From: Simmondsia chinensis
Taxonomy: Eukaryota > Streptophyta > Magnoliopsida > Caryophyllales > Simmondsiaceae
Assembly: GCA_018398585.1 (NCBI GenBank)
Contig: JAGTTD010000011.1
Span: 8,617,001-8,681,000, forward strand
Direction of reading: 5' to 3'
Length of the DNA: 64,000 nt
Shown in pieces: positions 14,879 through 60,135 of the stretch. The first letter of the stretch is position 1, and the number at the start of each line of letters is the position of its first letter. A model generated the notes under the pieces. That model made no database searches. It saw nothing but the letters and a program-made list of their open reading frames with translations, and had not been told where the DNA came from. The position numbers and the translations under genes are program-made.

Positions 14879-14981
14879 AGTTATATTGTAAATATTGGAT
14901 ATTTTTGGGTACAATTTTTATGTTCTAGTTTGGATATTATTAAATATCCTAAAAAATTAGAAATTATGTAAAATACTTTTG

Positions 14982-15098
<117 letters not shown>

Positions 15099-15250
15099 AT
15101 GTATATATCCATTTCTTTGTGGATGAACTCTCACCGCTTGCCCCCTATAAATATGCATGCGATGTATATAGCAGCAACACATAAAATGATAGAAAGTGAG
15201 ATTGTGAAAAAAAAAATTTATAATATAATATTGAGAGAATTATTTGCGTA

Positions 15251-15353
15251 AAAGGGGGAAGGCTGCTTACATCCCCCCCCCCCCCCCCCCCCCCCCCCCG
15301 ACCCTGCATAGGCAGGAGCCCTTGAGGCACTGGGTATGTTAAAAAAAAAAAAA
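15251..15353 (+). mobile_element. RTE-tail fragment inserted in copia D 5' LTR
   Basis: Contains the RTE 3' end signature: GGGGGAAGGCTGCTTACAT, a run of 27 C, then GGAGCCCTTGAGGCACTGGG. Flanked by ATTTGCGTA at 15242-15250 and 15354-15362. The other LTR of the same element (near 22779-22791) shows the empty site ATTTGCGTAGAAG. It ends in GGTATGTT plus an A-run instead of the (TTG)n of the RTE copies. This matches the tail of the 5S-headed SINE, so it may be a 5'-truncated SINE copy. Confidence 0.85.
15273..15299. repeat. C27 homopolymer
   Basis: 27 consecutive C inside the RTE-tail insert, at the place where related copies have a run of only six to eight C. Either real expansion or a read/assembly artefact. 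Confidence 0.9.
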
Positions 15354-15570
15354 ATTTGCGTAGAAGAAAAACTTCTCTCGTTCTTTGGTTCTTACACAAA
15401 ATACTTGCTATTTTTCTTCAAAAATATTTGGGTTTGCCTTTTTATTATCTTCTTATAGAGTATAATATCTCTATAATTTTATAACACATTAATAGCATGA
15501 GTTTCTAGCCATACAAGAATTATCATAAGCTTGAGGTAAAGTTTTTATTTTCTGACCTTTGTTATTTTCA

Positions 15571-18500: not shown

Positions 18501-19350
18501 AATATAAACAAGTTGGCTCCTTTAGTAAAACTCACGAAAAGAAACCCCCTAAAGTGGTACAAATGTAAATCCAAGAAAAAGAAACAGAGGGAAAAATGGC
18601 TCCTTAAGGGTATCAAATACCTGAGAATAGTGAAAATGATGAAAATGTCGAGATAAACTATGCTATTACTGGCATATGGTGGAATCGAAATGAAACGATT
18701 CTCGATCAAGTGTTCACATACAATGTGGCTGCCAATTTAGGTGAAGATTTTAAACCTAAATCTCTTCAAGAATGTCAATGAAGAAATGACTGGCTAAAAT
18801 GGAAAGAAGCAGTACAGGCAGAGTTAAGCTCACTTGCAAAACGTACAGTTTTTGGCCCTGTAGTCCAAACGCTTGAAAATACGAAACCCTTAGGCTACAA
18901 GTGGGTGTTTGTGTGAAAAAGAAATGAAAAGAATGAAGTCGTAAGACATAAAGCACGACTTGTAGCTCAAAGCTTCTCAACAAGGTTAGGAATTGACTAT
19001 GAAGAGACATATTCACATGTAATGGACGAAATTACATTCAGATTTTTAATAAGCCCGGTAGTCTATGAAAGACTCCACATGTGTCTTATGGACGTGGTAA
19101 CGACTTATCTGTATGGATCACTTGTTAATGATATCTATACTATATGAAAGTCCCCGAAGGGCTACAAATGCCAGAAGCATATAGCTCAAAACCTTGAGAG
19201 CTATGTTCAATAAAATTACAGAGATCACTGTATGGATTAAAACAATCAGGGCGAATACGGTACAATCGTCTTAGTACGTACCTTTTAGAAGAAGGATATG
19301 TGAACAATCCTATTAGCTCATGTGTTTTTGTTAAGAAATCTAATTTGTGG
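15571..19350 (+). pseudogene. Copia D gag, protease, integrase and N-terminal RT
   Basis: ATG at 15571 (MANLTKLEFTALDISGKNYL) is a typical copia gag start. A His/Gly-rich stretch and a CCHC knuckle (RCGTKGHWWHTC) are at about 16190-16415. Protease/pre-integrase follow at about 16850-17350 (MLWHDRLGHVGVTMM). Integrase is at about 17390-18280, with a GKMINGPSP region and FRYFMV/ASTRWSHVFLL pieces. RT begins near 18790 (W..W..A...E). It is cut at 19350 by an RTE insertion just before the YVDD active site. At least ten stops are present, several where Gln or Trp codons are expected. Confidence 0.82.
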
Positions 19351-20530
19351 TACTAATGAGCCACACTCCGAAGCTTTGGGAGCGGGTGATAGAAAGAAGA
19401 CTTCGATCACGAGCAGTGGTCTCAGAGAATTAATTTGGATTTATGCCAGGCAGGTCGACGACAGAAGCCATCCATCTCCTCAGGAGGTCCATAGAGTACT
19501 ACCTAGATAGACAAAAGGACCTCCACATTGTTTTTATTGACCTAGAGAAGGCATATGATGAAGTCCCGAGAGAGTTCCTATGGAAGGCCCTGGAGGGAAA
19601 AGACATCCCCCAGCCCTATATACGTATCATCAAAGACATATACGAAGACGCCCAAACCAATGTATGAACAACGGAAGCGGACATAGATGCTTTTTCCATT
19701 ACAGTTAGGGTACACCAAGGATCGGCCTTGAGTCCCTTTCTATTCATTTTGGTTATGGACGAGCTCACTAGGCACATCCAAGAGGACGTGCCTTGGTGCA
19801 TGCTCTTCGCGGATGATATAGACAATCAAGAGAGGAGGTCAATGAGAAAATTGAACTTTGGAGAATGGCCTTAGAAGTGAAAGGTCTAAGACTCAGTAGA
19901 TCTAAGACCGAGTACATGGAACTGAAGTTCTGCGCCTCTATCATGCCAAGCACAGAAGTTATCAAGATTGGATCAGAGTGCATACCACAGAAAGCATGCT
20001 TCAAATACTTCGGTTCCATGGTGCAACAAGACGGTGAAGTGGACGTAGATATCAACAACAAAATTAAAATGGGTTGGCATATATTGAGGATGGCCTCTGC
20101 GGTACTGTGCGATAGGAAGTTCCCATTAAAGGGTAAATTCTATAAGATGGTAGCGAGACCGGCTATGTCCTATAAGGCAGAGTGCTGGCCAGTTAAGTGT
20201 CAGCACAGGCAGAAGCTGAAGGTTGCGGAGATGAGGATGTTGAGATGGATGCGTGGACATACAAGAAAGGATAGGGTCCAAAATGATGTCATAAGAAGTA
20301 AATTAGGCATCGCCCCAATAGAGGATAAGTTGAGGGAGCAATGTCTGCAGTGGTTTGGGAATGTCAGGAGGAGATCCACAACTTCCCCTGTAAGGAGATG
20401 CGAACAACTGCTTATTGCAGACGGGAAGAGAGGAAGAGGGCGGCCAAAGAAGAGTTGGATGGAGACAATCCGAAAGGACCTCGCCTACCTCAACCTAAAT
20501 GAAGAGATGGCCTTAGATAGAGCTCAGTGA
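19351..20530 (+). pseudogene. RTE reverse transcriptase and C-terminus (partial)
   Basis: RT blocks: VSENQFGFMPGRSTTEAI (with one frame change), [38 protein letters not shown], and CMLFADDI with the catalytic FADD intact. The thumb/C-terminal part follows to 20530 (MRMLRWMRGHTRKDRVQND, GRGRPKKSWMETIRKDLAYL). A stop sits near 19666 and a frameshift follows FADDI near 19820. The endonuclease is absent. Confidence 0.88.
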
Positions 20531-21055
20531 AGGATTAGTGTAGGGGTTTCCGATTTAGCGGTGTAGGGTCACAGAGCACGCATAAGCTAGCTCTCTCTAT
20601 CTACTTTCTCTTTGTACTTCCTATGTCCGTATCCCCCTACACTTTCTATACGCTATACCCTCCTTATCTGTGGCAAGGTGTCGCATGTAGATTTTTCTCC
20701 TCCTATCTCGTTTGGTTTTACCTTTGGCCTTAGTTGCTATGCTCCCATGCTTACATGTTTTCATGTTTATATGCTCACATGCGTATAAGCTTACTTGCTT
20801 ATATGCTCAAACGCTTTACATGCCTTACATGCTTTTCTTGATCCCTACACTTTACGTATTCTTCATGTTCTGAATACATGCTATACATGCTACACTTACA
20901 TACCCTTCTTAACCATCACTATCAGGATGGGGGTCCTCGGAAACAGCCTCTCATCAGGGCCCCTCCTGAGGGGGTAAGACTACGTACATCCTACCCCTCC
21001 CAGACCTTGCATACATGGGAGCCCTTGAGGCACTGGGAGTGTTGTTGTTGTTGCT
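19351..21055 (+). mobile_element. 5'-truncated RTE-clade LINE in copia D
   Basis: Starts within RT (HTPKLWERVIERRLRS) and ends with the RTE 3' untranslated signature GGTCCTCGGAAACAGCCTCT at about 20933-20952, GGGAGCCCTTGAGGCACTGGG at about 21017-21037, and a (TTG)n tail. It is closely related to the full-length RTE at 50664-60135. Copia sequence resumes at TCTATGTTGATGATT. No clear target duplication was found. The missing 5' half, including the endonuclease, is typical of LINE insertion. Confidence 0.9.
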
Positions 21056-22060
21056 GTCTATGTTGATGATTCAAACATCATAAAAACACCTGAAGTGGTT
21101 AAATAAGCTGTTGCATATCTAAATAAAAAGTTTGAAATGAAAGATCTCGGAAAGACAAAATATTGCCTTGGCTTGCAAATCGAGCACTTATCCGGTGGAA
21201 TTTTAGTCCATCAATCTGCTTATACAGAAGAAGTGCTTAAACGTTTTTACATGGATAAGGCACATCCATTGAGCACGCCGATGGTTGTCCGATCACTTGA
21301 TGTGAATAATGACCTGTTTCAACCTCAAGGGGAAGACAAAGAAATTCTTAGCCCTGAAGTGCCATATCTAAGTGCAATAGGTGTATTGATGTAGCTTGCT
21401 AAGTATGCGAGGCCAAATATAACTTTTTCGGTTAATTTATTAGCAAGCTATAGCTCAACTCCTACCTGGAGACATTAGAACGGAATTAAACATATCTTTA
21501 AATATCTCCATGGTACATCTGATATGGGTTTATTCTATCCGAGATAACCAAATCCAAGATTGGTTGGGTATTCAGATGATGGATATTTGTCTGATCCACA
21601 TAGAGACCACTCATAAACAGGATATTTATTTACTTATGGTGACACTGCCATATCATGGTGATCTACCAAACAAACAACAGCACCAACTTCTTCGAACCAT
21701 GCCGAAATACTCGCACTTCATGAAGCCAGTAGGGAATGTTTATGATTGAAATCCCTTATTCAACATGCTCAACAGGAATGTGGTCTTCCAACGATCAGGG
21801 GGAGCCCAACGATACCGTATAAAGATAATGCTGCATGTATTGCTCAGATCAAAGATGGATACATTAAAGACGACAGAACTAAACATATCTCACCAAAATT
21901 CTTCTTTACTCACGAGCTTCAGAAGATGGGTGAAATAGATGTTCAACAAGTTTGCTCAAATGAGAACCTGACAGATTTGTTCATGAAAGCATTACCAACA
22001 ACAACATTTGAGAAATTAGTTCACAAGATTGGCATGCGTCGACTTAGGAACGCCCCTTAG
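21056..22060 (+). pseudogene. Copia D C-terminal RT and RNase H
   Basis: Opens with YVDDSNIIKTPEVV, the copia RT active site, straight after the RTE tail. It continues with MKDLGKTKYCLGLQIEHLSG, then frame changes at 21394, 21510 and 21746. The RNase H end has YKDNAACIAQIKDGYIK, DDRTKHISPKFFFTHELQ and a final stop at 22060. Together with 15571-19350 this accounts for one complete copia polyprotein. Confidence 0.85.
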
Positions 22061-22250
22061 TAATATGTTCACATGAGGGCGAGTTAAATACGAGTTACAC
22101 TCTTTTTCCCTTCGCTATGGGGTTTTTTCCCACTGGGTTTTCCTGGCAAGGTTTTTAACGAGGCAGGCGTATTTACCTTGGACATTATACACCTTTAAAA
22201 GTATTATGTCCTGTTATGATGAAAAATATCCAAAGGAGGAGTGTTGTAAA

Positions 22251-22485
22251 AAAAGGAACATACCTAGTGCCTTAAGGGCTTTCACCTACGCATCGTCTAG
22301 TGGGCGAATGTACACAGCCTTCCCCCTTCAGGGTGTTAACCTAAAGAGAGGCTGTTTCCGAATGCCCCCAACTTGAGGGTGAGGACTTTCCAGGAGGTTA
22401 CCCATCCTGATACTGCTCTCGCCAAGCACGCTTAACTCCGGAGTTCTAATGTGATCCGATGACGACGTGTTGGTGCCCTCTTTGG
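22251..22485 (-). mobile_element. 5S rRNA-headed SINE with RTE-derived tail
   Basis: Read on the minus strand, a 5S rRNA-like head (about 22484 to 22376) is followed directly by the RTE 3' end (22374 to 22251). The head keeps the 5S internal promoter: A box AGTTAAGCGTGCTTGG (22437-22422) and C box AGGATGGGTAACCTCCTGG (22408-22390), plus GAACTCCGGAGTT upstream. The tail has GTTGGGGGCATTCGGAAACAGC and AGCCCTTAAGGCACTAGG as in the RTE copies of this window, and ends in a T-run. A 13-bp target duplication GGAGTGTTGTAAA flanks it (22238-22250, 22486-22498). It splits the start of the copia D 3' LTR. A Cassandra-type TRIM was considered but does not fit. Confidence 0.88.
22376..22484 (-). pseudogene. 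5S rRNA-derived head of the SINE
   Basis: About 109 bp aligning to most of plant 5S rRNA from memory of its consensus. The first about 20 bases have drifted, while the middle and 3' half are well kept, including GTTAAGCGTGCTTGG and the GGGTAACCTCCTGGAAAGTCC region. It is not a functional 5S gene: it has single-base deletions, is fused to the RTE tail and lacks the usual tandem arrangement. Confidence 0.9.
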
Positions 22486-22958
22486 GGAGTGTTGTAAATA
22501 TTGGATAATTTTCTAGTATAATTTTTATGACCAAGTTCGGATATTATTAAATATACTAGAAAATTAGAAATTATATAAAATACCTTTGTATGCATATATA
22601 CATATATATTATAATATATATGTATATATCCATTTCCTTGTGGATAAACTCTCACCGCTTGCCCCCCATAAATATGCATGCGATGTACACTACAGCAGCA
22701 CATAAAACGATAGAAAGTGAGATTGAGATTCAGTTTGTGAAAAAAAAAAAATCCTTATAGTATAATATTGAGAGAATTATTTGCGTAGAAGAAACACTTC
22801 CCTTGTTCTCTAGTTCTTATACAAAATATTTGTTATTTTTCTTCAATCATATTTGGATTTGTCTTTTTATTATCTTTCTATATAATATAATATCTCTATA
22901 GCTTTTTAAAAAGTTATACTATATTTATGAAATTATAATGTATGATGTCATTGTTTGA

Positions 22959-41080: not shown

Positions 41081-41209
41081 CTCCAGGTTGGGGGTCCCCG
41101 GAAACAGTCTCCTTTCCTGCCGGAAGGGGTAAGGATGCATATATCACCACCCCCAGACCCCACGTTATGCGGGAGCCGCAAGGCACTGGGACTGTTGTTG
41201 CTGCTGTTG
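41081..41209 (+). mobile_element. 129-bp RTE-tail insertion
   Basis: Begins CTCCAGGTTGGGGGTCCCCG and carries GGAAACAGTCTCC, CCCCCAGACCCC, GGGAGCCGCAAGGCACTGGG and a (TTG/CTG)n tail, all as in the RTE 3' end. A 19-bp target duplication TTGTTTATAACTTTTTTAT is at 41062-41080 and 41210-41228. It is either an extremely 5'-truncated RTE or a SINE tail. Confidence 0.92.
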
Positions 41210-42050: not shown

Positions 42051-44690
42051 ATGACTTCTTTGCATCCTATTATTTGTCATTGGGGTAAAAAGGCCGAAAA
42101 AAATGTAGAGCATGTCAATTATGTTGAAGGTTATAGCAGTATGATATTTGTTAGAAAAGATGTCAATTTTAGTGGATTAACAAGTATGTTGAAAGAGCAT
42201 TGTAATATTGATCGAATATTGTTAATTTGAAAGTGAAATGGGGTACTCGTACTGTACATGGATATCAAATGATTGATCTTTTCAATGACAATTCATTAGA
42301 AGTTATGTGGTCATACATTGAGCTACAGAAGTAGTCATCAACAGATTTTTATATAGAAAGTGGGCTAGAAAATCTGAATGTTAATATGAGAAATCACCTA
42401 CCTGAATATCAATCAACTTATATGTATCCATCACCTTACTCAAATTTGTTTTCGTCTGTTGAATCCCAATCTTACGTGCAGAATATGATGCATTATCCTA
42501 TGGGTATGGGGTTGCTCCAAGTATACCCCAAAATTATGTGACCGATACTAGTACTCCAGTTCGTCCAACTTTATTATTGGAATGTCCTGCCAATAATGCA
42601 ATTCCATCTAATTCCGGAATGGGTCGAGTTGGTGCATCAAGTAGCCATACTAGGCAAGATCGTATTCCGGTTCGTCCAACTGTATCATTGGAATGTCCTA
42701 CCAATAATTCAATTCCATGTAATTTGGAAATGGGTCGAGCTGGTGCATCAAGTGCCCGTACTGAGCAAGCTGTGAGTATCCCTAATGAAGGATGCCCAAT
42801 GTCACAATCTAATCCTGTGATAGAATATGCAAAACAAGGTGGTGATGGTGACGGAGTATTTGTTAGTACAACTTATGATGACAGTGATCAAGGCTATTTG
42901 ATCGAGGATGAAGACAGTGAGCGAATTGATGAAATCAAAAGGGAGCTTGAACAGGACGATGGGGATGATGATGTCGTTGATGAGCGAATTAATGAAACTG
43001 AAGCGGAGTTTGCACGTAATGACACAGATGAAGATCCTGTTAGTGCTTGTGCTCCCGTACTTGAATTTGCTCATATCAATGAAAATCCCTATGTCGAACC
43101 TCATGAGTTTAATTTTCACTTTGATCATGTCGGCGAATTTGTAGTGGGACAACTTTTCATACCAAAAAAGATGTCATAAATGTTGTGCAACTGCATTCGA
43201 TAAGAAACAATCAATTTTGTAAGACAGTTGAATCAACTCCGATGAAGTTAGTGTTCAAATGCAAGAAGAGTGATTGTCCATGGTGGTTAAGGGTTGTTGT
43301 CAAAGATCCACAATTCCCTTACTTCAAAGTTGTAACGTACAGAGGTCCTCACACATGTGTCAGTGATGTGTATTCAGAAGTATTCCAACTTTAGACCCTT
43401 CTGTCCACTTTTTCGACAAAGCTTTTTGGTTGTTTGGGCCAGCCATACAAGGATTTCAGTATTGTCATCATGTCATATCCATCAATGGTACCCATCTTTA
43501 TGGGAAGTATAAGGGAGCATTGTTACTTGTTGCTTCTGATGCTAATAATCAAGCGTTTCCCTTGGCATTTACTCCCGTAGAAAGCGAGAGTAATGCTAGT
43601 TGGTCATGGTCCATGAAGTATTTGAAAAAACATGTAATAGGGGAAAGAGAAGTCTGTGTGATTTCAGATTGTCACGCTGGAATAATGAATGTAATGAGTA
43701 GAAGAGAATGGAGGGAGCGAAATGCCTATCATAGGATTTGTTTGTGACATCTTGTATCTAATGTGAATGTAAGGTTTCGAAATACAAATTTGAAAAATAT
43801 GACACGCTATGCTGCAAGGTAGGCTCAACCCAGGAAATTCAAACTCGACATTTGATAGAATCAACAAGGTGAATATCGATTTACGCAGATATTTTGGTGA
43901 AATTGGCCTGAACAAGTAGGATCTTTGCCATGACCAAGGGAAGCGATATCGGCTTATGAGGACTAATATGGCTGAAATCATGAATGATGTGCTGAAGGGA
44001 GTTCGTAGCCTTCCTATCGCTTCACTTGTAGAGTTGACCATCTATCGGACAAATAAGTGGTTTGTTCGACGGCGAGGAGTTGCGGGTGAACTTCTTGTTG
44101 AAGAGAAAACTTGTTGCCCCAAAATCAATGAGAAATTGGAGTCCAATAAGGCTAAGGCGCGATATCATCACGTTGAAGCATTTGATTACCAAAGAGTTAT
44201 ATATGAGGTCATCACTACATCAGGTGATAAGGAGAGAGGAAAAGGAGGATATAAACAAACCATTAACCTCGAAGAAAAAACTTGCTCCTGTCAAAAACTG
44301 CAGTTGTATGGTATCCCATGTTCTTATATTCTTGTCGTATGCTACAATAGAAATTATGATCCTTTATCATTCATGAACCGGTATTAGACCCTTCCTATGT
44401 ATTGTGATTCATACGAGCCGAAGTTCAATCCAATTCCGGACAAGGGATATTGGGAGCCGTATGATGGACCTAAAATAATCCCGAATCCTAGTTTAAAGCG
44501 AAGTCAAGGCTGCCCACCTTCGAAACGAATTCAAAATGAGATAGATGAGAACCACGATACACGGAGGGTCACATGTGGGTTTTGTAAGGGAAAAGGTCAT
44601 AATGTAGTGACATGTAAGAAGAAAAAAGAGCACGAGGCTCGGTTAGCAGCTAGTAACAGTGAAATATATGACGGTAATTTATTTATGTTT
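42051..44690 (+). pseudogene. mudrA-like MULE transposase, broken
   Basis: ATG at 42051 (MTSLHPIICHWG) starts the PB1-like N-terminal region seen in many plant MULEs. An acidic linker is at 42540-43180. The MuDR DNA-binding domain is at about 43180-43370 (FKCKKSDCPWWLRV, THTCVSD-like PHTCVSD). The DDE core is at 43460-43700 (ISINGTHLYGKYKGALLLV with the first D changed to N; CVISDCHAGI with the second D intact). A SWIM zinc finger is near 44280-44340 (CSCQKLQLYGIPCSYIL). A CCHC knuckle near 44575-44620 (CGFCKGKGHNVVTC) closes it. The segment between the DNA-binding domain and the core (about 43380-43430) is far shorter than usual, which suggests an internal deletion. Stops are at 42228, 42333, 43394, 43745 and 44386. 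Confidence 0.9.
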
Positions 44691-44771: not shown

Positions 44772-46993
44772 ATGGAGCCAGTCCCAGTTGACCCCAGCCT
44801 CCTACGGCTACAGCCTCAGCACAGAAGTGCTGCAATATGGGATGGAGAGGTGAGTTTGATATTATATCGTTCAAATTTTTTAGTTTATTAGACTTATAAA
44901 TTATATATATGTTGTTCATACTGATTTTTTTGGTCTGTTGTTACAGGATGCGGGCGTTCTCACTTGTCGCCACCATGTAACCCGTTTACTAGGTCATTGG
45001 AGGGTAGATGATCGGATTCTACACTATGTTAGGCGTGTTGGACTTTTTGGAGTCCACCGGCTGATTCATGTGTCTCTAGATCACCCTTTGATAACTGCCT
45101 TGGTTGAGAGGTGGCGACAGGAGACCCACACTTTTCATCTAAATAGTGGGGAGACAACAATCACCCTTCAAGATGTTTCTATCTTGATGGGGTTGAGGGT
45201 AGACGGGAATCTCGTCACTGGTACCAGTGACATAGATTGGGCCGCTTTAGTTGAGGAGCTACTTGGGATCCGGCCAACCCCTGCAGATTTACATGGCTCC
45301 TCTATTAGATTCACATGGCTTCGTCAGCACTTTTACCACTTGCCCGATGATGCCCCAGAGATTCAAATTGAATATGCTGCAAGGGCATATATTTTTACAT
45401 TACTTGGTGGCATGTTATTTGGGGATAAGACGGGCAATGAGATACAACTTATATATCTGCCTCTGCTTCGTGATTGGGATGCGGCGGCAGAATATAGTTG
45501 GGGGAGTGTGACGTTAGCTTTTTTATACCGACAACTATGTCGGGCATCACGACGAGGAGTGCAAGAGATTGCTGGCCCTCTTACCCTTGTACAGGTTTGT
45601 TATATATTCTTCTGTAAAAAATTTTTTCTTTTTTATATGAGTATGTTTGTGATATGTGTTATGTTTTTGTATGAATATAGCTATGGGCATGGGAGTGAAT
45701 TCCTATAGGTCGACCAGACCAAGCTCCCCATTTTCGTGGAGATGATGATGATCCACTTGGATGCAGGTATTTCTATAATTTAATAAATTTGTATAATGAT
45801 GCTTGAATTTATGTATTTCTCAAATCAATCTTTTGTTGAATAGGTGGGTACATAATGGTTCTCGTATTGATGCACCGAGAAACCTTACATATTATAGGAG
45901 TGCGTTTGATTTACAGAAAAGTAATTAGGTAAAAATTATATTCATTTTTGTCTTCATATTTGTATTTGTATTTATTATTTTTGATAAATCTTTCTTTTTT
46001 TGATTTTAGATGGCATGGACTCCTTATACAGATGAGACTATTGCATTGCTTCTAGACCTATGTCGCCATGGTCGGCATATTTGGCGCAGTGTAGTCCCAC
46101 TCATCTGTTTTGATGTCATTGAGTGGCATTATCCGGATTGTGTGATGCGCCAGTTTGGGATGCAACAACATATCCCAATTAATACTGATCCGTTCGTTGA
46201 ATTACATGCTCTTGATCGACGTGGTAAACACAAGGTCGATTGGGCAAGACATCACGAAGTGTATCTGTCGATGTGGGGTAGACGTGCAGAAAACGCAGCA
46301 TTTTCTCCTCTAGCAGCCCCTCTCCCCAATGACGACCAATACATGTCATGGTACCGACGCATCACACGGTTGAGAATAACCCCTCCTGCCGATCATCCAC
46401 GAGATGGCTATCTTCCAATTCAGTCAAATGAAGACTTCGCTGTAAGTAGTTTTACTTTATTCTTGCAGATTTGAATATTAATATTAAAACGTATTCTAAT
46501 ATTTGTTTTTACTATTGAATAGATAACGATGGCACAGATAGTCGATTTGAGCACGGGGATTATTCAAAATCAGGATCTATCTGAAATGCAAGCTCAAATG
46601 AACAAGCCAACTGTAGAGGAGATTAGGAGATTCGGATATCAATGCCTACAACGTCAAGGCCGAACCCATCTTATCCAAGTGCCTTTTTCTGATAACTTTT
46701 CCTCATTTCATACAACTTCCACTTATGCTGCTGGAACCACGTCGAGAGGGATATGGGATCAACACAACGAGGACCATCAACAATTTCAGGGTGCGCCTTC
46801 TGAAAATGTTGATGAAAATCTTATTTATGAAGAAAATGTTATTCCTGAAGAAGATATTTCTCAAAAACATACAACACATGAAGATACTGGTAGGAGTAGA
46901 GGTGGAGTTAGGGATAGAGGTAGAGATAGAGGTAGGGGCAGAGGGAGAGATAGAGGTGTAGCCAACAAACGAAGACGTCCATTTTTACCTTAA
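44772..46993 (+). pseudogene. Plant mobile domain (PMD, MAIN-like) gene, six exons
   Basis: Exons read as 44772-44849, 44947-45594, 45681-45766, 45844-45928, 46010-46441 and 46523-46993. Each has GT..AG borders and the reading frame is kept throughout. The start is MEPVPVDPSLLRLQ, the PMD core begins GVLTCRHHVTRLLGHWRVDD and contains DHPLITALVERWRQETHTFH and TITLQDVSILMGLRVDG. Late exons hold MAWTPYTDETIALLLDLC. The C-terminus is a (RG/RD)-rich basic tail. Two nonsense codons break it: TGA at 45696-45698 where Arg is expected and TAG at the end of exon 4 where Gln is expected, both single C-to-T changes. PMD genes travel with MULEs and some became host genes. The function of PMD in transposition is not known to me. 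Confidence 0.85.
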
Positions 46994-49956: not shown

Positions 49957-50300
49957 ATGGCTCTCTCCCCTTCTTCTCTAATCCCCCCTCTCTACTCTGA
50001 CTCCACTTCTCGCCCGCTCCTCTCTCTCCCCTCTCCCTTCCTCTCTCTCTTCACCTCCTCTCCCCTCCCCTCTCTCTCGTTTTTCACTCGGAATTCATTG
50101 CTTTGTCCGCAAAGACGCAACTCAATCCACATTTTGTCCCAAGGCTGGCATTGCTGTTTACAAGCCTAAGTTATATGAAGAGCTCGTTACTAACGCTGCT
50201 AATTCCGTTGCTTACGCTCTTGATGATGGAAAAACCCGCTTGGAGATTGATTTTTCGGAAGTTTCTTTCCGACTGTCTCATTTTGTGCTTAATTTAGGTT
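49957..50300 (+). pseudogene. Fragment resembling a chloroplast DUF1995/LPA3-type gene
   Basis: ATG at 49957 opens a Ser/Pro/Leu-rich stretch like a chloroplast transit peptide (MALSPSSLIPPLYSDSTSRP). A frame change near 50100 then gives AGIAVYKPKLYEELVTNAAN followed by VAYALDDGKTRLEIDF, the start of the DUF1995 domain as I remember it from LPA3-type photosystem II assembly proteins. Similarity fades after about 50250 and the rest of the domain (over 200 residues) is absent. The fragment lies 190 bp inside a duplicated MULE end, so capture by a Pack-MULE is plausible. Family call is from memory. Confidence 0.5.
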
Positions 50301-50384
50301 TAGTGGAGTTATTTATGCTGTTGGTCCCTTATCCCTTATCCCTTATCCCTTGTTTGGCAAGCGGGTAAGGGTGAGACATGTTAG

Positions 50385-50708: not shown

Positions 50709-51765
50709 ACTGCTCTCTCTCTCTCTCTAGCTAACGTTGACCTGCCACATTTTGCTGACCTGCCACATTTTGCTGCCACCTTCACCTAACGCCACCTACC
50801 ACAGTCCGGTCGGTGCACCATCGCCGGCGATGCAACGACAAGGGAGCATCGTAGAGCTGGAGCAGGGATGCCCGCGCAAGGTACCATATCCCCCCCCCCC
50901 TCGAAACCGGGTACCCCCACCACCACCACCATCGGTGCCCTGCCGAACCCGACCCGGCCATCCCCTTAGCCACTCAACCCCCCCCCCCCCCCCCTCAAGC
51001 CATCAACGAACACCCTGACGCACCCCCCACCGATTTCATCTCCCTCACCCTGACCCCCTGACACCCCGACCCGACCCCTTGACCTACCGCCACCCGTCTC
51101 CCCAGACCCACCACCACTGGAACCCAGCCCGACCAGACCCAACCAACCCGGGCCACCTGGACCACCACCACCCCCCCATCTCTCACCTCACCCCCCACCC
51201 CCTCTGCCTTCCCTGACCCACCACCACTGTCACCCCTGCCAGACCCACCACCACCACCGCCCTCACCACCCAGACCCACCACCACCGTCACTCGTGCCTG
51301 ACCCACCAGCACAACGGACCTCATACCCCCTGACCAACCAGCACCAAGACCAAGCCTTGCCACTATCCCCACCAACCCTCCACCCCACGACCACTAACCC
51401 GGAGCAGCCGCCAGCCACAGCCTCAAGACAACCTCGCAGCCGACTGACCCAAGTAAGCAAAATCGGTCGGCCGTAGGTAAGTATTTGCCGGGTCAGAGTA
51501 TCTACTGTGCACCAGCCCCAGGTTTGATCTTTCCCTAATCACAGTAGGGTAGTGTTTTAATTTACCATTGTTGGGTACTTTTCATTGGGTTCTTTGTCCT
51601 TTCATTATTTTGATTACTGTGATCTTTGGCTGTGGTGGTAATTTCGTGCATGTATGTTATAATAAGCTTCTGGTCTATGTTGATCACTTACCCACGCTAG
51701 TCACAGCTAGTGGATGAACGTTACCAGTGATGGAACTCAGAGATTGAGGCCATCTCCAAGGAGGC
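50664..51765 (+). other. 5' untranslated region of the RTE
   Basis: A (CT)n tract (about 50674-50730) is followed by about 750 bp with strong strand asymmetry: long CCACC, CCCCC and CCACCACC runs and few G on the plus strand (about 50880-51470). A proline-rich reading is possible but no ORF1-type domain was seen. Probably promoter and leader. Confidence 0.6.
50674..50730. repeat. (CT)n microsatellite
   Basis: About 55 bp of CT repeats with short interruptions at the start of the RTE. Confidence 0.95.

Positions 51766-51767
<2 letters not shown>

Positions 51768-51797
<30 letters not shown>
51768..51797. repeat. G30 homopolymer
   Basis: 30 consecutive G just upstream of the endonuclease coding frame. 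Its length decides whether the upstream ATG is in frame. Confidence 0.9.
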
Positions 51798-51800
<3 letters not shown>

Positions 51801-52743
51801 GCAGAAGGGGATAGGGAACTTGAGACTAGGGACACTAAATATCGGGACACTAACGAAAAAGAGTTTCGAGGTGGCCCAAATGATGATGAAGCGTAAAATC
51901 AACATCCTTTGCCTGCAAGAAATTGGCGCGAAAGCCAGGGATGTGCCGGGGTACAAGCTCTGGTATGCAGGCATGGTCAGAGGTAGGAATGGAGTTGGTG
52001 TCGTTGTGGATAGCAACCTCAAGGATAAAGTAGTTGGAGTATCAAGGGCTGGTGATAGGATCATAAGTATCAAGTTGGTCCTAGATGGAGAAGTATTGAA
52101 CGTGATCAGTGCCTACGCACCTCAGACTGGACCAACAGAGCATGAGAAAGCAGCATTCTGGGAGGACTTAGACATAGTGATGCAAGGCATACCCCAAGCA
52201 GAACGAGTGATGATTGGCGGGGATTTTAATGGGCATGTCGGTGCGACAGAGGACAGTTACGCTTCTTACCACGGAGGATTCGGTCTTGGAACTAGGAATG
52301 CAGAGGGGAAAGCCGTACTAGACGTCGCGGTCACATACGACCTAACAGTGGCCAACACCTTCTTCAGAAAGCGTGCGCAACACATCATCACATACCAAAG
52401 CCGCGGGACAAGAACATAGATTGACTACATACTATTAAGGAGAAGGGCACAAAGAGACTGTAGGGATTGCAGGGCTACCCCAGGAGAAGACCTGTCTACA
52501 CAACATAGGGTCTTGTGGGCGAATATAAAGGCCAAGAAAAGGGCCAAAAGAATCAGCAAACCCGCGCAGACGCATACCTATTGCAGGGATTTGAAGGGGG
52601 AAAAGTGTAAGGTATACAAGGAAAGAGCGGAGGTCGAGCTCGAGTGGGACCTCGAGGGAGATACAAACCAGATGTGGAGCCAATTGGCCCAAAAGATCAG
52701 AGGACTAGCACAGGAAGCTCTCGACACGTCAAAGGCAGGGTAC
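51790..52743 (+). pseudogene. RTE endonuclease domain
   Basis: LRLGTLNIGTLTKKSFEVAQ starts the fold. KINILCLQEIGAKAR carries the LQE acidic residue. VVGVSRAGDRIISIKLVLDG, VISAYAPQTGP and VMIGGDFNGHVG (catalytic D and N) follow, then IDYILLRRRA with the second D. One TAG is at 52417-52419 where the substrate-binding loop begins. The region is cut at 52743 by gypsy H and continues at 57896. It belongs to the AP endonuclease family and nicks target DNA for target-primed reverse transcription. Confidence 0.9.
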
Positions 52744-53008
52744 TGTCATAAATCGAACTTAGAATTAGGCTAATATGCATTTTGGCGGGAATAATACTTC
52801 TTAGTGCATTTAGGCGGGAAAGTTTGTTATGTGAATGGGTGATGTGTCCGGTGAGTTACATCTTGAGCTAAGCTTTGTAAATATCTAAAAATATTTGGAA
52901 ATGTAAGAAGTGATCATTCAATGAAAATATAATCCAATTCCTTGTTTTTACTCTATCTCTTGCTCTCAATTCGATGGTTAGCATTCAATTTCTAGTTGAT
53001 TTCTAACA
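52744..53008 (+). repeat. 5' LTR of gypsy H (265 bp)
   Basis: TGTCATAAATCG to TTTCTAACA. It lies two bases upstream of the primer site. Confidence 0.96.
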
Positions 53009-53010
53009 AT

Positions 53011-53022
53011 TGGTATCAGAGC
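53011..53022 (+). other. Primer-binding site of gypsy H
   Basis: TGGTATCAGAGC, complement of initiator tRNA-Met. Confidence 0.93.
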
Positions 53023-53082
53023 TTCGTTCTAGGCATCCATCTAATCATCAAGTCCATTCTAGCCAGAAAGAGAAGATCGAAA

Positions 53083-54072
53083 ATGCCTCCCACCACCCAA
53101 GCAAATGCATCTAACAATGCCCCCAATGCCGCGCCCAATGTGGTACCTGGTGTTGCAGCTCCCACCTATTTTGCTGTTGCGGGAGCTGAAGGAGCTAGTC
53201 CTCAAGGGTTACGGATGGATCAAGTGATGCAAATGATGCAAAATGTGCTCCGGAATGTCTAGTTACTTGATCAGAAAATGGACAATCAGGGCCAAAGGTT
53301 GAATCAGTTATCCGATTGGCAAAGAAGGTGTGAATCTCAGCAGCAAGGAAGTGGGAATCTCTTCCCAACTAACCCAAAACCTGTTCGACAGCCGGTCAGA
53401 TCCCCTGATTTCATTCCTCCACCCTCAGATTCAGGTGACAGTGCCTCAAATGCAAGAAGTTCCTCTTACAGACTGCCTTGGCTAGAGCTGGAGCCATTTG
53501 AAGGAAACTTGCCTCAATCTTGGTTGAGGAAATGTGAGAGGTATTTTAAATTCTATAGCATTAAAGAGCATGAGAAAGTGGAGCTGGCGGCAGTTAAATT
53601 GAAGGGAGAAATGGAGACTTGGTTTTATGGGTTGATTCGCACCAAACCAAATCTCACTTGGACCACATTCTCAAATGAACTTTGTTCTCGATATGGTGAT
53701 GAAGATGTCAGTGAAGTTGTTGATAAATTCAACAAATTGATCCAATCAACGACTGTCAAAGACTATATGGGTAGATTTGAGGAATTAAGAGCAAGAATGC
53801 TCTCCATTTATCCTGATGCTCTGGAGTCCTTTTATGTTTCCAGCTTTGTGAGTGGACTCAAGCCACGCCTCAAGAGCTTGGTTAAGGCTTTTGAACTAGA
53901 GTCCTTAACTCAGGCATATACCAAGGGCAAAGGGAATTTCCTTGGCTCTTCATCCAGTCGGGCTACCCAACCCAATAGCAAGAATAACAGCTTGGAGGAC
54001 AGGAGGCCTCAACGATTATGCTACAAGTGCAATCAGAAGTACTTCTTTGGTCACAAGTGTGATCCAAAGTAA
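53083..54072 (+). pseudogene. Gypsy H gag
   Basis: ATG at 53083 (MPPTTQANASNNAPNAAP). A TAG at 53260-53262 splits it from the main frame (53278-54072). The retrotransposon-gag core reads LPWLELEPFEGNLPQSWLRK, VELAAVKLKGEMETWFYGL, FSNELCSRYGDEDVSEVV, then VSSFVSGLKPRLKSLV. It ends with a zinc knuckle CYKCNQKYFFGHKC (CX2CX4GHxC) followed by a stop at 54070-54072. Forms the particle core. Confidence 0.9.
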
Positions 54073-56035
54073 TTAATGACAGTTATTGGTGAAGAAAGCC
54101 ATGAAGAGGAGGCTGATGAAGAAGTTCTTTAGGAACCAACTCTGGAGGAGGAGGAATTCGAGGCAGAAGAGGACAGTTCTGTGGAAATATCAGTGAAAGC
54201 TCTAACCGGGTCTGGTTCACACGACACCATTAGAATCAAGGGGGTAGTGGGACCACAGACATTGCTTATCCTCATTGATAGCGGTAGTACACACAGCTTT
54301 GTTGATCCTAAGGTCATAAGAGCTGTGGGACAAGAGATCATCAAGACTACTCCCCTTGCCGTGACCGTTGCTGATGGTAATTCCCTCCTCACTCACACAA
54401 AATGTAAGAACTTCAGTTGGAAAATGCAGGGGCATAAGTTTGTCTATGACTTTAGGCTCTTGAGACTTGGTGGTTGTGACATGGTACTAGGAGTAGATTG
54501 GATGAAGGCCTACAGTCCAATCCTCTTTGATTTTCACAATTGGCAGTTTCCTTTGAAAAGGAAGGACTTAAGATCAAATTGCAAGGCATTTGTGAGCAAG
54601 GACAGCTGCAATACATGAGTGGGAAGCAGCTACACAAGGCACTAAGGAAGGAAGATTACAATTGGGTTGGTCATTTTTATTCAATCACACCAAATGCAGC
54701 ACTTGAGCAGCAACAGATTTCAGCTCCTCTGCAGAATCTATTGACAAAATTTGATGACATTTTCAGACAACCTGATGAGTTACCTCCCCATAGGTCCTTG
54801 GATCATGCTATTCCACTGAAGGAAGGAGCCCATCCAGTCAGCCGCCGCCCTACAGATACCCACATTCACAAAAAAAATGAGATTAAGCGACAGGTGGATG
54901 AACTGCTCCAGACCAAGTTCATCAGGCATAGTCACTCTCCCTTTACATCACCGGTAATTTTGGTGAAGAAGAAGGATAGAACATCACGAATGTGCATTGA
55001 TTACCGCCAATTGAACTTTCTTACAGTCAAGGACAAGTTCCCAATACCTGTCATTGACGATTTACTTGATGAACTCAATGGTGCTTGCTACTTTTCTAAG
55101 CTGGACCTACAGCAGGGGTATTATCAGATAAGAGTTCAAGAAGGCGACATCCATAAGACAGCCTTTAGGACACATCAAGGTCATTATGAGTTCGTGGTAA
55201 TGCCCTTTGGGCTATCCAACGCACCAGCCACATTTCAAGCTTTGATGAATGAGGTGTTCAAAGCTTACTTGAGGAGGTTTGTCCTTGTTTTTTTTCGATG
55301 ACATATTGGTCTACAGCCCCACATTGCAGCAACACTTGGTGCAACTGAGGAATGTCTTCCAGATAATGAGAATTCACAAGCTGTTCGCTAAGCTCTGCAA
55401 ATGTGCCTTTGCTCAAACTCAGGTTGAATACCTGGGACATATAATATCCTTTGAAGGAGTTGCCACCGATCCAAGCAAAGTGCAAACTATGTTGCAATGG
55501 CCAGAGCCCAAATCCCTTACAGAATTAAGGGGATTTTTGGGTTTAACAGGCTACTACCGCAAATTCATAATGGGGTATGGGTTGATTGCCAAGCCATTAA
55601 CAGAATTGCTCAAGAAGGACAACTTCCATTGGAATGTTTCAGCTCAGGAGGCATTTGAATCACTGAAACAGATCATGACCAAGGCTCCAGTCCTTGCTAT
55701 GCCTGACTTCAGCCAGCCCTTCACTCTTGAAACTGATGCTAGCAGTTCAGGCATTGGTGCTGTTCTTTCGCAAGGCGGAAGACCATTGGCTTACTTAAGC
55801 CAAGCTTTGGGACCAAAGAACCAAAGTCTCTCCATCTATGAGAAGGAGTATATGGCCATACTTTTGGCTGTCCAAAAGTGGCACCATTATCTGGAAGGCC
55901 ACAAATTTGTCATAAAAACAGATCATCAAAGTCTAAAATACTTGCTCGAGCAAAGGATCACCACAAGGGTCCAAAGAAAAGGGTTGATGAGAATGCTGGG
56001 GGTTAGAATACACCATTGAGTACCGGAAGGGGGCT
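54073..56035 (+). pseudogene. Gypsy H protease, RT and RNase H
   Basis: An acidic linker (EEEEFEAEED) precedes the protease. LILIDSGSTHSFVD has the intact DSG active site and LGGCDMVLGVDWM the flap end. RT has [54 protein letters not shown] and [20 protein letters not shown], then [10 protein letters not shown] with the catalytic DD. A T-run expansion at about 55285-55295 shifts the frame just before DD. RNase H follows: FTLETDASSSGIGAVLSQ, YEKEYMAILLAVQKW and KTDHQSLKYLLEQR. A shift near 56000 breaks the end. One more shift lies near 54540. Confidence 0.93.
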
Positions 56036-56041
56036 GAAAAT

Positions 56042-57180
56042 TTGGTAGCAAATGCTCTCTCTAGATGCAATGAGGCAACAGAATCAGAGGAAAAAGCAGA
56101 TGAAGCTCGGGTTGCTGCAATCACTGAAGTAGTACCTCTTTGGATGACAGAAGTGATCAGTTCTTATGAAAACGATGAATTTGCTAAAGCTTACATTGTT
56201 CCTTACTGTATCAATTCCTCTCCAGCAAATCTTGATTCCAATATTTCTGTTAATGGAGGCATCATAAGGGTTAACGGCAAAATCTATGTGGGTAATGACA
56301 GCAAGTTAAGGGAACATATCATAGCAGCATCTCATGACTCTCCTTGGGGGGTTCACTCTGGCAGAGAAGGTTCATATCAGAGAATCAAGCATTATTTTTA
56401 TTGGCCTAAGCTGAAGAAGCAAGTCCAAGAATTCGTGGACCAGTGCCAAATTTGCCAACTGATCAAGGTGGATCACACACCTTACAAAGGCCTGCTGCAA
56501 CCTCTTCCAATTCCCGAAGGTTCTTGGACCCACATCAGCATGGATTTCATTGAGGGACTACCTAAATCTGAAGGGAAGGAGATCATTTGGGTAGTAATTG
56601 ATTGTTTTACCCGATATGGTCACTTCATTGCTCTTCATCACCCCATCACTGCTGAAAAGTTGGCTCGGTTGTTCTTAGACAACATCTACAAACTACATGG
56701 CCTTCCTTAAACAATTGTGTTAGACAGAGACAAGTTATTCACTAGTAACTTCTGGCGTGAGCTGTTCCTTCTGATGGGCACCACCTTAGCCTTGAGTTCT
56801 TCTTACCATCCATAATTGGATGGCCAAACCAAGAGAGTTAATCAAAGTGTAGAGCAGTACCTGCGTGGCATGACATTCTCACATCCCAAACAATGGCACA
56901 AATGGCTCTCTCTGGCTAAGTATTGGTATAATATTCATTCTCATAGTTCCTTAGGAACTACACCATTCAAAGCTCTCTATGGTCAATATCCTCCTTCTCC
57001 ATTATTCAATCAAGGGGTGGTCTCTCATGTACAAGGGGTTACTGACTTACTTCAGCAGAGAATGCAACTAATTCATTAGCTCAAAGATAATTTACAATTG
57101 GCTCAAGCTAGGATGAAGTTCTACGCAGATAAGAAGAGAACTGATAAGAGCTTCAATGTGGGAGATATGGTATATCTTAA
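56042..57180 (+). pseudogene. Gypsy H integrase
   Basis: The HHCC zinc end reads HSGREGSYQRIKHYFYWPKL then FVDQCQICQLIK. The core has SMDFIEGLPKSEGKEIIWVV and VIDCFTRYGHFI (first D), [14 protein letters not shown] (second D) and a damaged Glu region (DGQTKRVNQSVEQYLR, where the expected Glu is Lys-Arg-Val). A stop at 56708, a stop at 56814 and one at 57077 interrupt it. The Glu to Val loss would inactivate the enzyme even without the stops. Confidence 0.88.
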
Positions 57181-57189
57181 ACTGCAGCC

Positions 57190-57594
57190 ATATTGACAAA
57201 GTTCAGTAGCAATCTGCAAAAACATCAAGTTATCTGCCAGGTTCTATGGCCCTTACAAAATCATAGAACGAATTGGCAAGGTAGCATACAAATTGGAGCT
57301 TCCCCGAGATTGCTGGATTCACCCTGTGTTTCATATTTCCTTACTGAAGAAACAGGTCTCTTCCAAAGCTGACGGCACTGAAAGTACCCAAAGAGGAGCA
57401 ACAGCAAGCTTGCAAGCAGGAAGTAACGGTCAATTGATCCTTGAACCTGAGGTCATTCTTGATAAAAGAACGGTGTAGCAGCAAGGCAACACCACACAAC
57501 AGCTTTTGATCAAATGGACCAACTTGAGCACTGAACAGGCTACTTGGGAGAATTCCAACTTCATCAAATCTCAATTTCCTTCTTTCCATTCTTG
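57190..57594 (+). pseudogene. Gypsy H integrase C-terminus and chromodomain
   Basis: [20 protein letters not shown] followed by [12 protein letters not shown] is the conserved GPY/F module. After a linker, [14 protein letters not shown] (with an in-frame TAG), LLIKWTNLSTEQATWENSNF and IKSQFPSF form the chromodomain, with the W..L....ATWE pattern. This domain steers insertion towards heterochromatin. The frame ends at the TGA at 57594. Confidence 0.88.
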
Positions 57595-57610
57595 AGACAA
57601 GAATGAATTA

Positions 57611-57623
57611 AAGGGGAGGGAAT
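57611..57623 (+). other. Polypurine tract of gypsy H
   Basis: AAGGGGAGGGAAT directly before the TG of the 3' LTR. Confidence 0.9.
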
Positions 57624-57890
57624 TGTCATAAACCGAACTTAGAATTAGGCTAATATGCATTTTGGCGGGAATAATACTTCTTAGTGCATTTAGGTGGGAA
57701 AGTTTGTTATGTGAATGGGTGATGTGTCCGGGTAGTTACATCTTGAGCTAAGCTTTGTAAATATCTATACAAAGATTTGGAAATGTAAGAAGTGATGATT
57801 CAATGAAAATATAATCCAATTCCTTGTTTTTGCTCTATCTCTTGCTCTCAATTCGATGGTTAACATTCAATTTCTAGTTGATTTCTAACA
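57624..57890 (+). repeat. 3' LTR of gypsy H (267 bp)
   Basis: TGTCATAAACCG to TTTCTAACA, followed by the GGTAC target duplication. Confidence 0.96.
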
Positions 57891-57895
57891 GGTAC

Positions 57896-59768
57896 CAAGC
57901 AACAGAGAGTCATGGTGGTGGTGCGAGGAGGTCCAAGAGAAGATTAAGGCGAAACAAGTTTGTTTCAAAGAATGGGATCATAGCATAGATGAGGATATGT
58001 AACATCGATATCTGCAAGCCAGGAGAGAAGCTAAGCAGTTAGAGAAGCACAATCAAGAGCTTATGAGGATTTCTACAAAAGGCTGGAGACCAAGGAGGGT
58101 GCGAGGGACCTATATAGAATCGCCAAAGCTAGAGAAAGAAAGACAAGGGACTTGGACATAGTACAATGTATAAGAGGGGAGGATGGATAGGTACTTGTGG
58201 ACAGGCAACTGATTAAGGCTAGAGATATCCTTAGATGATCTTCAAACATCTGAGGAGCATCAGAACCACTGTTATTGTAGGCAAATTAGCCCCGAGGAAG
58301 TCAAGGAAACCCTGAAATTCATGGGAAGGGGTAAAGCAGTTGGCCTAGATGACATACCCATAGAAGTATGGAAATGCCTTGGACAGAAGGGCGTCAGTTG
58401 GCTGACTAAACTGTTTAATCAAATCCTCTTGGGGGAGAAGATGCCTGAGAAATGGAGGAAGAGCACAGTGATCCCGATATATAAGAACAAAGGCGACATT
58501 CAGAGTTGCGCTAACTATCGGGTATCAAACTAATGTGTCACATTCTGAAGTTGTGGGAACAGGTCATAAAGAGGAGGTTAAGGCAACAGACAGAGGTGTC
58601 CGAGAACCAATTCGGATTTACACCCAGGAGATCAACCATAGAAGCCATCTACATTCTAAGGCGAACGATAGAGCAATATAGGGAGAGACAAAAGGACCTT
58701 GACATGGTTTTCATTGATTTAGAGAAGGCATATGATAGGGTGCCAAGGGAGGTCCTTTGGAGAGTTATGGATAGGAAAGGCATCCCCGTGCCATACATCC
58801 GAGCTATTAGAGACATGTATGAGGAGGCACAGACTATGGTGTGTACAGAGGATGAGGAGGCAGACGCTTTCCCGATAACAGTAGGGGTACACTAGGGCTC
58901 GGCTTTGAGCCCCTACCTATTCATTTTGGTTATGGACGAGCTCACTAGGCACATCCAAGGATGTGTACCTTGGTGCATGCTTTTTGTAGATGACATAGTG
59001 TTGGTGGGAGAGTTGCGGGAAGAGGTAAATAAGAAGCTTGAACAGTGGAGAGGGGCACTAGAGTTGAAGGGTTTACGACTAAGCAGAGCCAAGACCGAGT
59101 ACATGGAACTCAAATTCGATCCCTCCACCACGCCTAGCCGGGAAGACGTCAAGATTGGATCTGAGGCCATAGCGAAGAAGGAGAGCTTCAGGTACTTGGG
59201 GTCCATGGTACAGAACAACGGCGAAGTTGACGAGGATGTCAACAACCGGATTAAAGCGGGATGGCATAAGTGGAGGTTGGCCTCCGCAGTACTTTGTGAT
59301 AGAAAGTTCCCCTTGAAGCTAAAGGGAAGATACTATACGACGGTTGTGAGGCCAGCCATGACGTATGGGGCGGAGTGCAGGGTGATGAAACAACAGCACA
59401 CACAGAAGATGAAGGTGGTGGAGATATGAATACTGAGGTGGATGTGCGGACACACAAGGATGGATAGGATCAGAAACGACGTCATAAGAGGCAAATTGGG
59501 CGTAGCCCCCATTGAAGATAAATTGAGAGAGCAACGTTTGAGGTGGTTCGGACATGTTAGAAGGAGACCGGACAATGCTCCAGTAAGGAGGTGCGAACAT
59601 CCCCTTACTACACTAGGCAGGAAAGGAAGAGGCAGGCCAAAGAAGAGATGGATGGAGACGATCCGACAAGACTTCACCCACCTAAACCTTTGGGAGGAGA
59701 TGGCCTTAGATAGGGCCCAATGGAGGGCTAGTATAGGGGTTATAGATGCTCCAGTTGGAGTAGGGTAG
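57896..59768 (+). pseudogene. RTE connector, reverse transcriptase and C-terminus
   Basis: Continues the RTE after the gypsy insert: SWWWCEEVQEKIKAKQ connector, then RT blocks. GRGKAVGLDDIPIEVWKCLG (58327-58386), EKWRKSTVIPIYKNKGDIQS, ENQFGFTPRRSTIEAIYILR, MVFIDLEKAYDRVPREVLWR and [16 protein letters not shown] follow in order. The catalytic box reads CMLFVDDIVLVGE, with the usual FADD changed to FVDD. The C-terminal part has RGRPKKRWMETIRQDFTHLN and stops at 59768. Breaks: a one-base loss near 58520, TAG at 58893-58895, TGA at 59427-59429, and several in the connector. Confidence 0.92.
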
Positions 59769-60135
59769 TCTAGCTTATTAGTGTTAGGCTGTGTTATCCT
59801 CCTGGCGCACTTAGGTTGTGTACTCTACTACCTGCATGCCTACCTGCCGACCTACCTACCTATCCTTTGATTTCTGCTTGTTTTTTGCTTGATGTGGCTT
59901 GCTTTATGTCTTGTGTCTTGTGTGCTTTGTGTCTATTGTCTTGATTGCTTTGTTGTTCTCCTATTGCTAGGTCTCTTGCTCTCTACGGCGGACCATTCTC
60001 TAGGGTTGGGGGTCCTCAGAAACAAGCTCTCTTTAGGGTAGCCCCTTGAAGGGGAAAGGCTGCGTACATCTACCCCCCCAGACCTTGCTTTTGCGGGAGC
60101 CCTTGCAGGTACTGGGTTTGTTGTTGTTGTTGTAT
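59769..60135 (+). other. RTE 3' untranslated region and (TTG)n tail
   Basis: Holds the end signature used by all related copies in this window: GGGTTGGGGGTCCTCAGAAAC near 60002, GGGGAAAGGCTGCGTACATC near 60051, and GGGAGCCCTTGCAGGTACTGGG near 60095-60116. Four to five TTG units close it. This region is presumably what the RTE reverse transcriptase recognises. Confidence 0.85.

Follow-up and report, generated by a model that had tools for sequence, protein, structure and literature searches.

SINEs with heads derived from 5S rRNA make up the SINE3 class, reportedly described by Kapitonov and Jurka in 2003. The Au and Angio-domain SINEs of angiosperms are said to have been treated by Seibt et al. 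in 2020, and the Angio-SINE superfamily carries a 37-bp Angio-domain near its 3' end. Legume SINEs with a Tn-TA insertion signature were reportedly described by Nishiyama and Ohshima in 2018. Cassandra, a TRIM-type plant retrotransposon with 5S rDNA in its LTRs, makes target site duplications (TSDs) of 5 bp.

SINE3 elements are recorded in vertebrates and some insects (PMC7245038), and 5S-related SINEs also in a fungus (PMC5063351). An earlier sequence-only reading of the locus described here had placed the class in fish and some mammals; the animal hosts stand, but the recorded range is wider. The SINE3 elements of vertebrates and insects combine a 5S head, with A, IE and C regions, and a LINE-derived tail (PMC7245038, PMC3747384), and promoter capture for SINEs has been mentioned in animals (PMC10853983). 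In Ped-1 of the springhare, the 5S head is joined to a tail of BovB, a LINE of the RTE clade (PMC3747384), while PxSE5 and HaSE3 of moths also consist of a 5S head and a LINE tail, RTE being suggested for HaSE3 (PMC8010984, PMC7245038). Plant SINEs are given as tRNA-derived in a review of plant transposable elements, the Au and Angio-domain SINEs included (PMC9033089). In maize, 5S RNA-derived SINEs were looked for through their A, IE and C boxes "without success" (PMC2774510). Plant RTE LINEs end in (TTG)n, in contrast with the poly(A) of L1, and Au-like SINEs have poly(T) ends (PMC3747384). Insertions of plant RTE LINEs and of their SINEs have a run of T some 10 nt upstream of a TSD that begins with T and then A; in legumes, the SINEs have Tn ends and the LINEs (GTT)n ends (PMC13295347). 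Cassandra has been proposed to derive from a SINE3 inserted in an LTR (PMC10886601).

The locus lies in a 64-kb stretch of Simmondsia chinensis DNA, the whole of which was analysed and is called the window. We found there a 235-bp element that almost certainly represents a SINE3-type superfamily of 5S-headed SINEs in a plant, present in high copy number together with two sister families (B and C) and with RTE-type LINEs in the same genome. Like the animal elements it has a 5S head with A, IE and C regions and a LINE-derived tail, and the 5S-LINE fusion is like that of Ped-1. It differs from the SINE3 elements of vertebrates and insects in its plant host and in the head of family B, which is nearly host 5S from position 26 on; Ped-1, PxSE5 and HaSE3 have animal hosts and belong with other LINE lineages. 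The Au and Angio-domain SINEs have tRNA-derived heads in contrast with the 5S head here (PMC9033089), and the oligo(T) end may be compared with the poly(T) of Au-like SINEs (PMC3747384). The window copy, its parts and its site are as follows.

22251..22485, minus strand: 5S-headed SINE, a copy of family A, 235 bp, 89% identical to the family consensus (about 11% off)
22374..22480, minus strand: 5S rRNA-derived head (Rfam RF00001 match; consensus compared with host 5S genes)
22422..22437, minus strand: A-box region AGTTAAGCGTGCTTGG of the 5S internal promoter (sequence reading; 5S positions 50-64 identical in the consensus of families A, B and C and in the host)
22390..22408, minus strand: C-box region AGGATGGGTAACCTCCTGG (sequence reading; consensus against host 5S)
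22255..22373, minus strand: tail from an RTE-type LINE 3' end (likeness to (TTG)n-ended 3' ends)
22251..22254, minus strand: oligo(T) end, AAAA on the plus strand (sequence reading)
22238..22250, no strand: TSD copy 1, GGAGTGTTGTAAA, at the start of the copia 3' LTR
22486..22498, no strand: TSD copy 2, GGAGTGTTGTAAA, an exact 13-bp repeat of copy 1
15252..15340, plus strand: 5'-truncated SINE tail copy of family A type, ending GGGTATGTT, inside the copia 5' LTR

The names and extents of the A-box and C-box in this copy are our assumption, and the sequence-only reading used the same names. That reading had described a 5S head fused to an RTE-type tail on the minus strand, with a 13-bp duplication around the whole unit, and the sequence bears out both points. 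The Rfam 5S_rRNA model matched the copy at 22480-22374 of the minus strand with 53.4 bits (gathering score 38, E 2.4e-8), which is the sole Rfam match in the window at gathering scores.

The target of the SINE was a copia element, recognised by RVT_2 pieces at 18917-19144 and 21107-21391. The insertion lies at the very start of its 3' LTR, and the copia 5' LTR, which starts at 14886, is uninterrupted at the corresponding point and presents the unfilled sequence. Likewise, TTTGCGTA flanks the truncated copy at 15252-15340 on both sides and is present once in the copia 3' LTR. The copia-type element itself is degraded, its LTRs (14886-15484 and 22241-22910) have diverged from each other, and an RTE copy nested at about 19352-21053 interrupts its RVT_2 region. 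Its 5' LTR, but not its 3' LTR, contains a long expansion of a TA/GT microsatellite. At a fixed site of the SINE or LINE-type tail, a run of C is expanded (up to about 27 C) in L020:595-841, in the window at 15252-15340, and in L155 and L153, which suggests slippage at a fixed poly(C) site.

Copies were sought in the window's own assembly (831 Mb, 35 contigs). With the element and its flanks as query, 40 places were scored among 7,818 candidates, and the 39 besides the window cover nearly the whole element at 87-90% identity. The junction between 5S and tail of family A occurs, with up to two mismatches, at 8,259 places (4,122 forward and 4,137 reverse). The reversed pattern gave 0 matches, and copies in such number exclude a chance origin of the junction. 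We examined 90 family A loci, 30 from the element search and the first 60 of 100 listed junction places, all 60 on a single contig (C1). Full-length copies were found at 67 of the 90 (29 from the element search and 38 from the junction listing), and the 23 partial loci were omitted from the TSD count. A single TSD (score of at least 8) surrounds the whole unit in 55 of the 67, which shows that the unit moved as one, as had been claimed for the window copy from its own duplication; the remaining 12 are without a recognisable TSD by the rule used. The duplications measure 9-22 bp with a median of 17, and 42 of the 55 fall between 15 and 20 bp.

When flanks were swapped between loci, a score of at least 10 was reached by 0 of 670 cross-locus pairs against 53 of 67 real loci, and a score of at least 8 by 8 of 670 against 56 of 67, with a scorer slightly different from the one that gave 55 of 67. 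The family A consensus comprises 234 bp and the oligo(T) end, and its copies diverge by a median of 4.9% in a sample of 38 that, being taken by exact junction from one contig, is biased to young copies. Family A, with 8,259 junctions and TSDs in 55 of 67 full-length copies, has the marks of a SINE: it is short and dispersed, its ends are constant, and its insertions have target duplications of their own. The proposal that the window held an undescribed family agrees with the thousands of copies and the 5S SINE structure, with the qualification that, of the three 5S-headed families, it is the most derived one that includes the window copy.

The two other families, in which the 5S part is more complete, came to light as weaker matches within the sequence flanking the loci examined. 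The family B pattern AAGTCCTCGTATTGCACCCCTCAGGTTGG has 3,272 matches in the own genome and the family C pattern GTCCTCGTGTTGCCAACCCTATAAGGTTGGGG has 5,479, each with up to three mismatches and each with 0 for the reversed control, and the junctions read ...GTGTTGCACCCC/TCAGGTTGGGGG in family B and ...GTGTTGCCAACCCTATAAGGTTGGGGG in family C. No cross-family overlap of junction-pattern matches was seen in the loci examined. Families A, B and C together amount to 17,010 junctions, or about 0.5% of the assembly if all are full length. For families B and C, seeds were read by eye from the loci and the consensus sequences compared with them; family B was confirmed at every position, and family C showed two differences among 7 copies, where the seed was used over the majority. 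Twenty loci of each family were fetched; 6 of those of family B and 1 of those of family C fell short of the 3' end under the rule applied. Among the evaluable copies, TSDs were found in 7 of 14 for family B and 10 of 19 for family C, and the other 7 and 9 are without a recognisable TSD by the same rule. One family B locus (L127) aligned in part only, and its divergence of 35% is unreliable. The 3' end is oligo(T) in families A and B and, as in the LINEs, (TTG)n in family C.

To compare the heads with the 5S genes of the host, as the sequence-only reading had proposed, we located these genes in the same assembly. Among 51,838 candidates, 47 matches were scored, 46 of them in two arrays on one contig (C8) and one on another (C29); the arrays lie at 4.686-4.702 Mb and 6.397-6.414 Mb, and the genes read, one per array, differ at 3 of 119 positions. 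The family B head (consensus of 20 fetched copies) is 119 nt long and aligns gaplessly to the whole 119-nt host 5S with 105 identical positions, of which 92 of 94 lie from position 26 on and 13 of 25 before it (shuffle P about 0.01). The tail of family B starts at the base directly after the last 5S base. In family A, the first 25 nt of the head agree with 5S at 9-10 positions (P 0.18), and family A by itself does not show the head to start in register with 5S base 1. The family C head is identical to one host 5S type at 107 of 118 positions and to family B at 97 of 118. Taking the A, IE and C box positions in the heads to be as we placed them, the A-box and IE regions are identical to host 5S in all three families, and the C region (18 positions) has 1-2 differences. 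The Rfam match, these regions and the 105 of 119 positions of family B make the head one of SINE3 type; it is not the tRNA-derived head with A and B boxes of SINE2, the family B head aligning to 5S over its whole length.

The motif CATTAG is common to the host 5S genes and all three families. The host genes read AAGATGG...CTCTTGG, families A and C AGGATGG...CTCCTGG, and family B AAGATGG...CTCCTGG; in the C-box helix, both C8 arrays have A and T where families A and C have G and C. Because CATTAG is shared and the helix bases differ, the heads derive from 5S genes like those of the host, captured at different times or changed later in different ways. Since the A-box and IE regions are identical to host 5S, transcription by Pol III from the 5S start is naturally inferred. 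None of the SINE consensus sequences contains an internal T run longer than three, and TTTT occurs in 6 of the 12 LINE-type tails compared, in 5 of those 6 within GCTTTTGCGGG. This difference fits a selection against early Pol III termination that may have acted on the SINEs.

The tail was compared with the (TTG)n-type 3' ends of the window and of the genome. The related LINE parts in the window are given below.

51748..52419, plus strand: endonuclease part of an RTE-type LINE, a related autonomous element (Pfam Exo_endo_phos, E 7.3e-9)
58515..59429, plus strand: reverse transcriptase part, taken as the same LINE as the endonuclease (Pfam RVT_1, E 3.3e-13 and 7.6e-12)
60004..60132, plus strand: 3' end of this split LINE, with TTG repeats, related to the SINE tail (tail comparison)
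20916..21053, plus strand: 3' end of another RTE-type copy, which lies inside the copia element and has an RVT_1 piece at 19434-19664
41084..41206, plus strand: more distant tail of the same type (tail comparison)

A Ty3/gypsy-type element interrupts the LINE at 51748-60132. Its LTRs (52731-53008 and 57611-57890) share about 95% identity, and matches to Ty3 capsid and reverse transcriptase lie between the endonuclease and reverse transcriptase parts of the LINE. In the nested LINE, the protein piece at 19817-20527 gave no Pfam match. From its (TTG)n end and its endonuclease plus reverse transcriptase, we class the LINE provisionally in the RTE clade, that is, as RTE-type. Elsewhere in the window, an open frame at 44884-45708 encodes a plant mobile domain (Pfam PMD, E 1.2e-51) and a SWIM zinc-finger frame lies near it at 43920-44387, the two possibly marking a MULE-type transposon that carries a PMD protein. 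A weak DUF1995 match below the Pfam cut-off at 49982-50368 is possibly an exon of a host gene.

The family A tail or consensus is 82-83% identical to 60004-60122, 79% to 20916-21043 and 72% to 41084-41196. Genome-wide, (TTG)n-type 3' ends occur at 7,274 places, copies of family C included, and the control gave 0. Twenty of the 100 listed loci were fetched, picked by tail variant (12 GGGTC and 8 others) and not at random. Seven of the 20 contain 5S sequence and are family C copies (one of them, L152, with the last 5S bases only), and the remaining loci have no 5S head by eye. In a genome search with the LINE reverse transcriptase piece, all 150 scored places matched (of 10,694 candidates), and open frames of up to 792 codons surround the matches. 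We compared 12 LINE-type tails with those of the three families; the two window tails at 60004 and 20916 are tied to reverse transcriptase sequence, and the others are taken as LINE by their (TTG)n and the lack of a 5S head. The identities range from 72 to 92%, with best values of 88% for family A, 89% for B and 92% for C, and the furthest tail is that at 41084 of the window (72-75% to the SINE tails). The SINEs thus have a 3' tail in common with LINEs of the same genome, one of which has endonuclease and reverse transcriptase upstream. As for the suggestion that the likely partner lies in the window itself, the window ends are relatives of that partner, but the closest sampled tails for family A lie elsewhere (L157 and L147, both 88%, against 83% for 60004). 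The SINE tail presumably also resembles the Angio-domain and Au.

The insertion sites were compared with the signature described for legumes. Among the 55 family A sites with a TSD, TTT occurs between -14 and -7 in 32, where 1,000 random placements gave 9.9 on average and never more than 19, and T stands at -10 in 40 of them and in 15 of 17 family B and C sites. Of the 55 TSDs, 33 start with T and 17 with TA, the latter a weaker match. The sites share with the legume Tn-TA SINEs a run of T some 10 nt before the TSD, the TA at the start being weaker here (PMC13295347). The oligo(T) of families A and B and the TTG repeats of the LINEs are like the ends described for legumes, but family C, a SINE with TTG repeats, departs from that pattern (PMC13295347).

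A 5S sequence in a plant retrotransposon could also be read as a fragment or solo LTR of a Cassandra-type TRIM. Cassandra is likewise a plant retrotransposon with a borrowed 5S promoter (PMC10853983, PMC7215508, PMC10886601), and according to the cited passages it is widespread in plants (PMC10853983, PMC10886601); it differs in being an LTR element moved by the machinery of LTR retrotransposons. The TSDs found here, at 9-22 bp with a median of 17, are set against the 5 bp given for the plant TRIMs Helenus and Ajax (PMC10886601), and the unit runs from the 5S start through the LINE-type tail to oligo(T) or (TTG)n, not between LTR ends. Moreover, a canonical 5S 3'-end pattern has 1,994 matches, and the six sampled of the 100 listed are all family B SINEs. 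Having neither LTR ends nor a short TSD, the element was rejected as Cassandra or another TRIM, a reading we regard as very improbable. The single copy of the window, taken alone, would also fit a 5S pseudogene that came to lie beside an RTE fragment, whether the two inserted independently or were joined by a local rearrangement. Such a history does not agree with a junction that recurs at 8,259 places, nor with the one TSD pair that encloses the unit in 55 of 67 full-length copies. The family A copies refute it, and we give it practically no credence.

The number of origins is less easily decided. Families B and C could stem from two independent fusions of 5S with an RTE tail, with family A arising from B, in which case 5S SINEs were born at least twice in this lineage. 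Their junctions differ (GTGTTGCACCCC/TCAGGTTGGGGG against GTGTTGCCAACCCTATAAGGTTGGGGG), family B shares AAGATG with host 5S where C has AGGATG, and the C head is nearer to 5S (107 of 118) than to B (97 of 118). On the other hand, the two families have 5S attached almost at the same place in the LINE tail, and rearrangement of one junction could have produced the other; we hold two fusions to be a serious possibility, if somewhat short of probable. Acquisition from an animal with SINE3 by horizontal transfer might be considered, given that a transfer of RTE LINEs from arthropods to angiosperms is cited in PMC13295347 and that HaSE3 of the moth seems to be mobilised by the RTE clade (PMC7245038). 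However, the identity of the family B head to host 5S at 92 of 94 positions (26-119), and the match of the tail to LINE-type 3' ends abundant in the same genome, make such an import highly unlikely.

For the SINE3-type elements of the plant itself, the sequence features suggest that they would most likely be transcribed by Pol III and mobilised by RTE enzymes. Transcription by Pol III would start at the first 5S base of the head, an RTE protein would recognise the tail of the SINE RNA, nick the target about 10 bp from the T stretch and prime on the target. In family B the LINE tail follows exactly on the last 5S base, a joint that suggests an origin by template switch, in which the LINE reverse transcriptase would have passed from LINE RNA onto the 3' end of 5S rRNA. 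As to the succession of the families, the consensus of C lies nearest both to 5S and to the LINE tails, A lies nearest to B, and the sampled A copies, a biased sample, are the least diverged. Family A was therefore probably the last wave, and is probably the youngest or most derived of the three 5S-headed families.

Searching the open-licence literature, we found no plant 5S SINE named in titles or the starts of abstracts, and a literature search with the tail sequence gave one paper, which was unrelated. As far as checked, then, the combination is known in animals and its description in plants was not found, the novelty being limited to the literature searched. The near identity of the family B head to host 5S from position 26 on indicates an origin separate from animal SINE3. 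Taken all together, we are inclined to think, with some reserve, that plants have a SINE3 superfamily of their own, independent of that of animals, which would have arisen by a switch of an RTE reverse transcriptase from its LINE RNA to the extreme 3' end of mature 5S rRNA, and which would have spread in three waves to about 17,000 junctions while the (TTG)n end gave way to an oligo(T) able to act as a Pol III stop. Such a number of 5S-SINE junctions in one genome stands against the description of plant SINEs as tRNA-derived (PMC9033089). The three tail types in one genome bear on how a SINE drifts from the 3' repeat of its partner LINE while the machinery is kept. If this reading is true, plant 5S SINEs would be candidate donors of the 5S module of Cassandra, and a plant SINE3 would be the missing donor that makes the proposed derivation of Cassandra from SINE3 (PMC10886601) testable.
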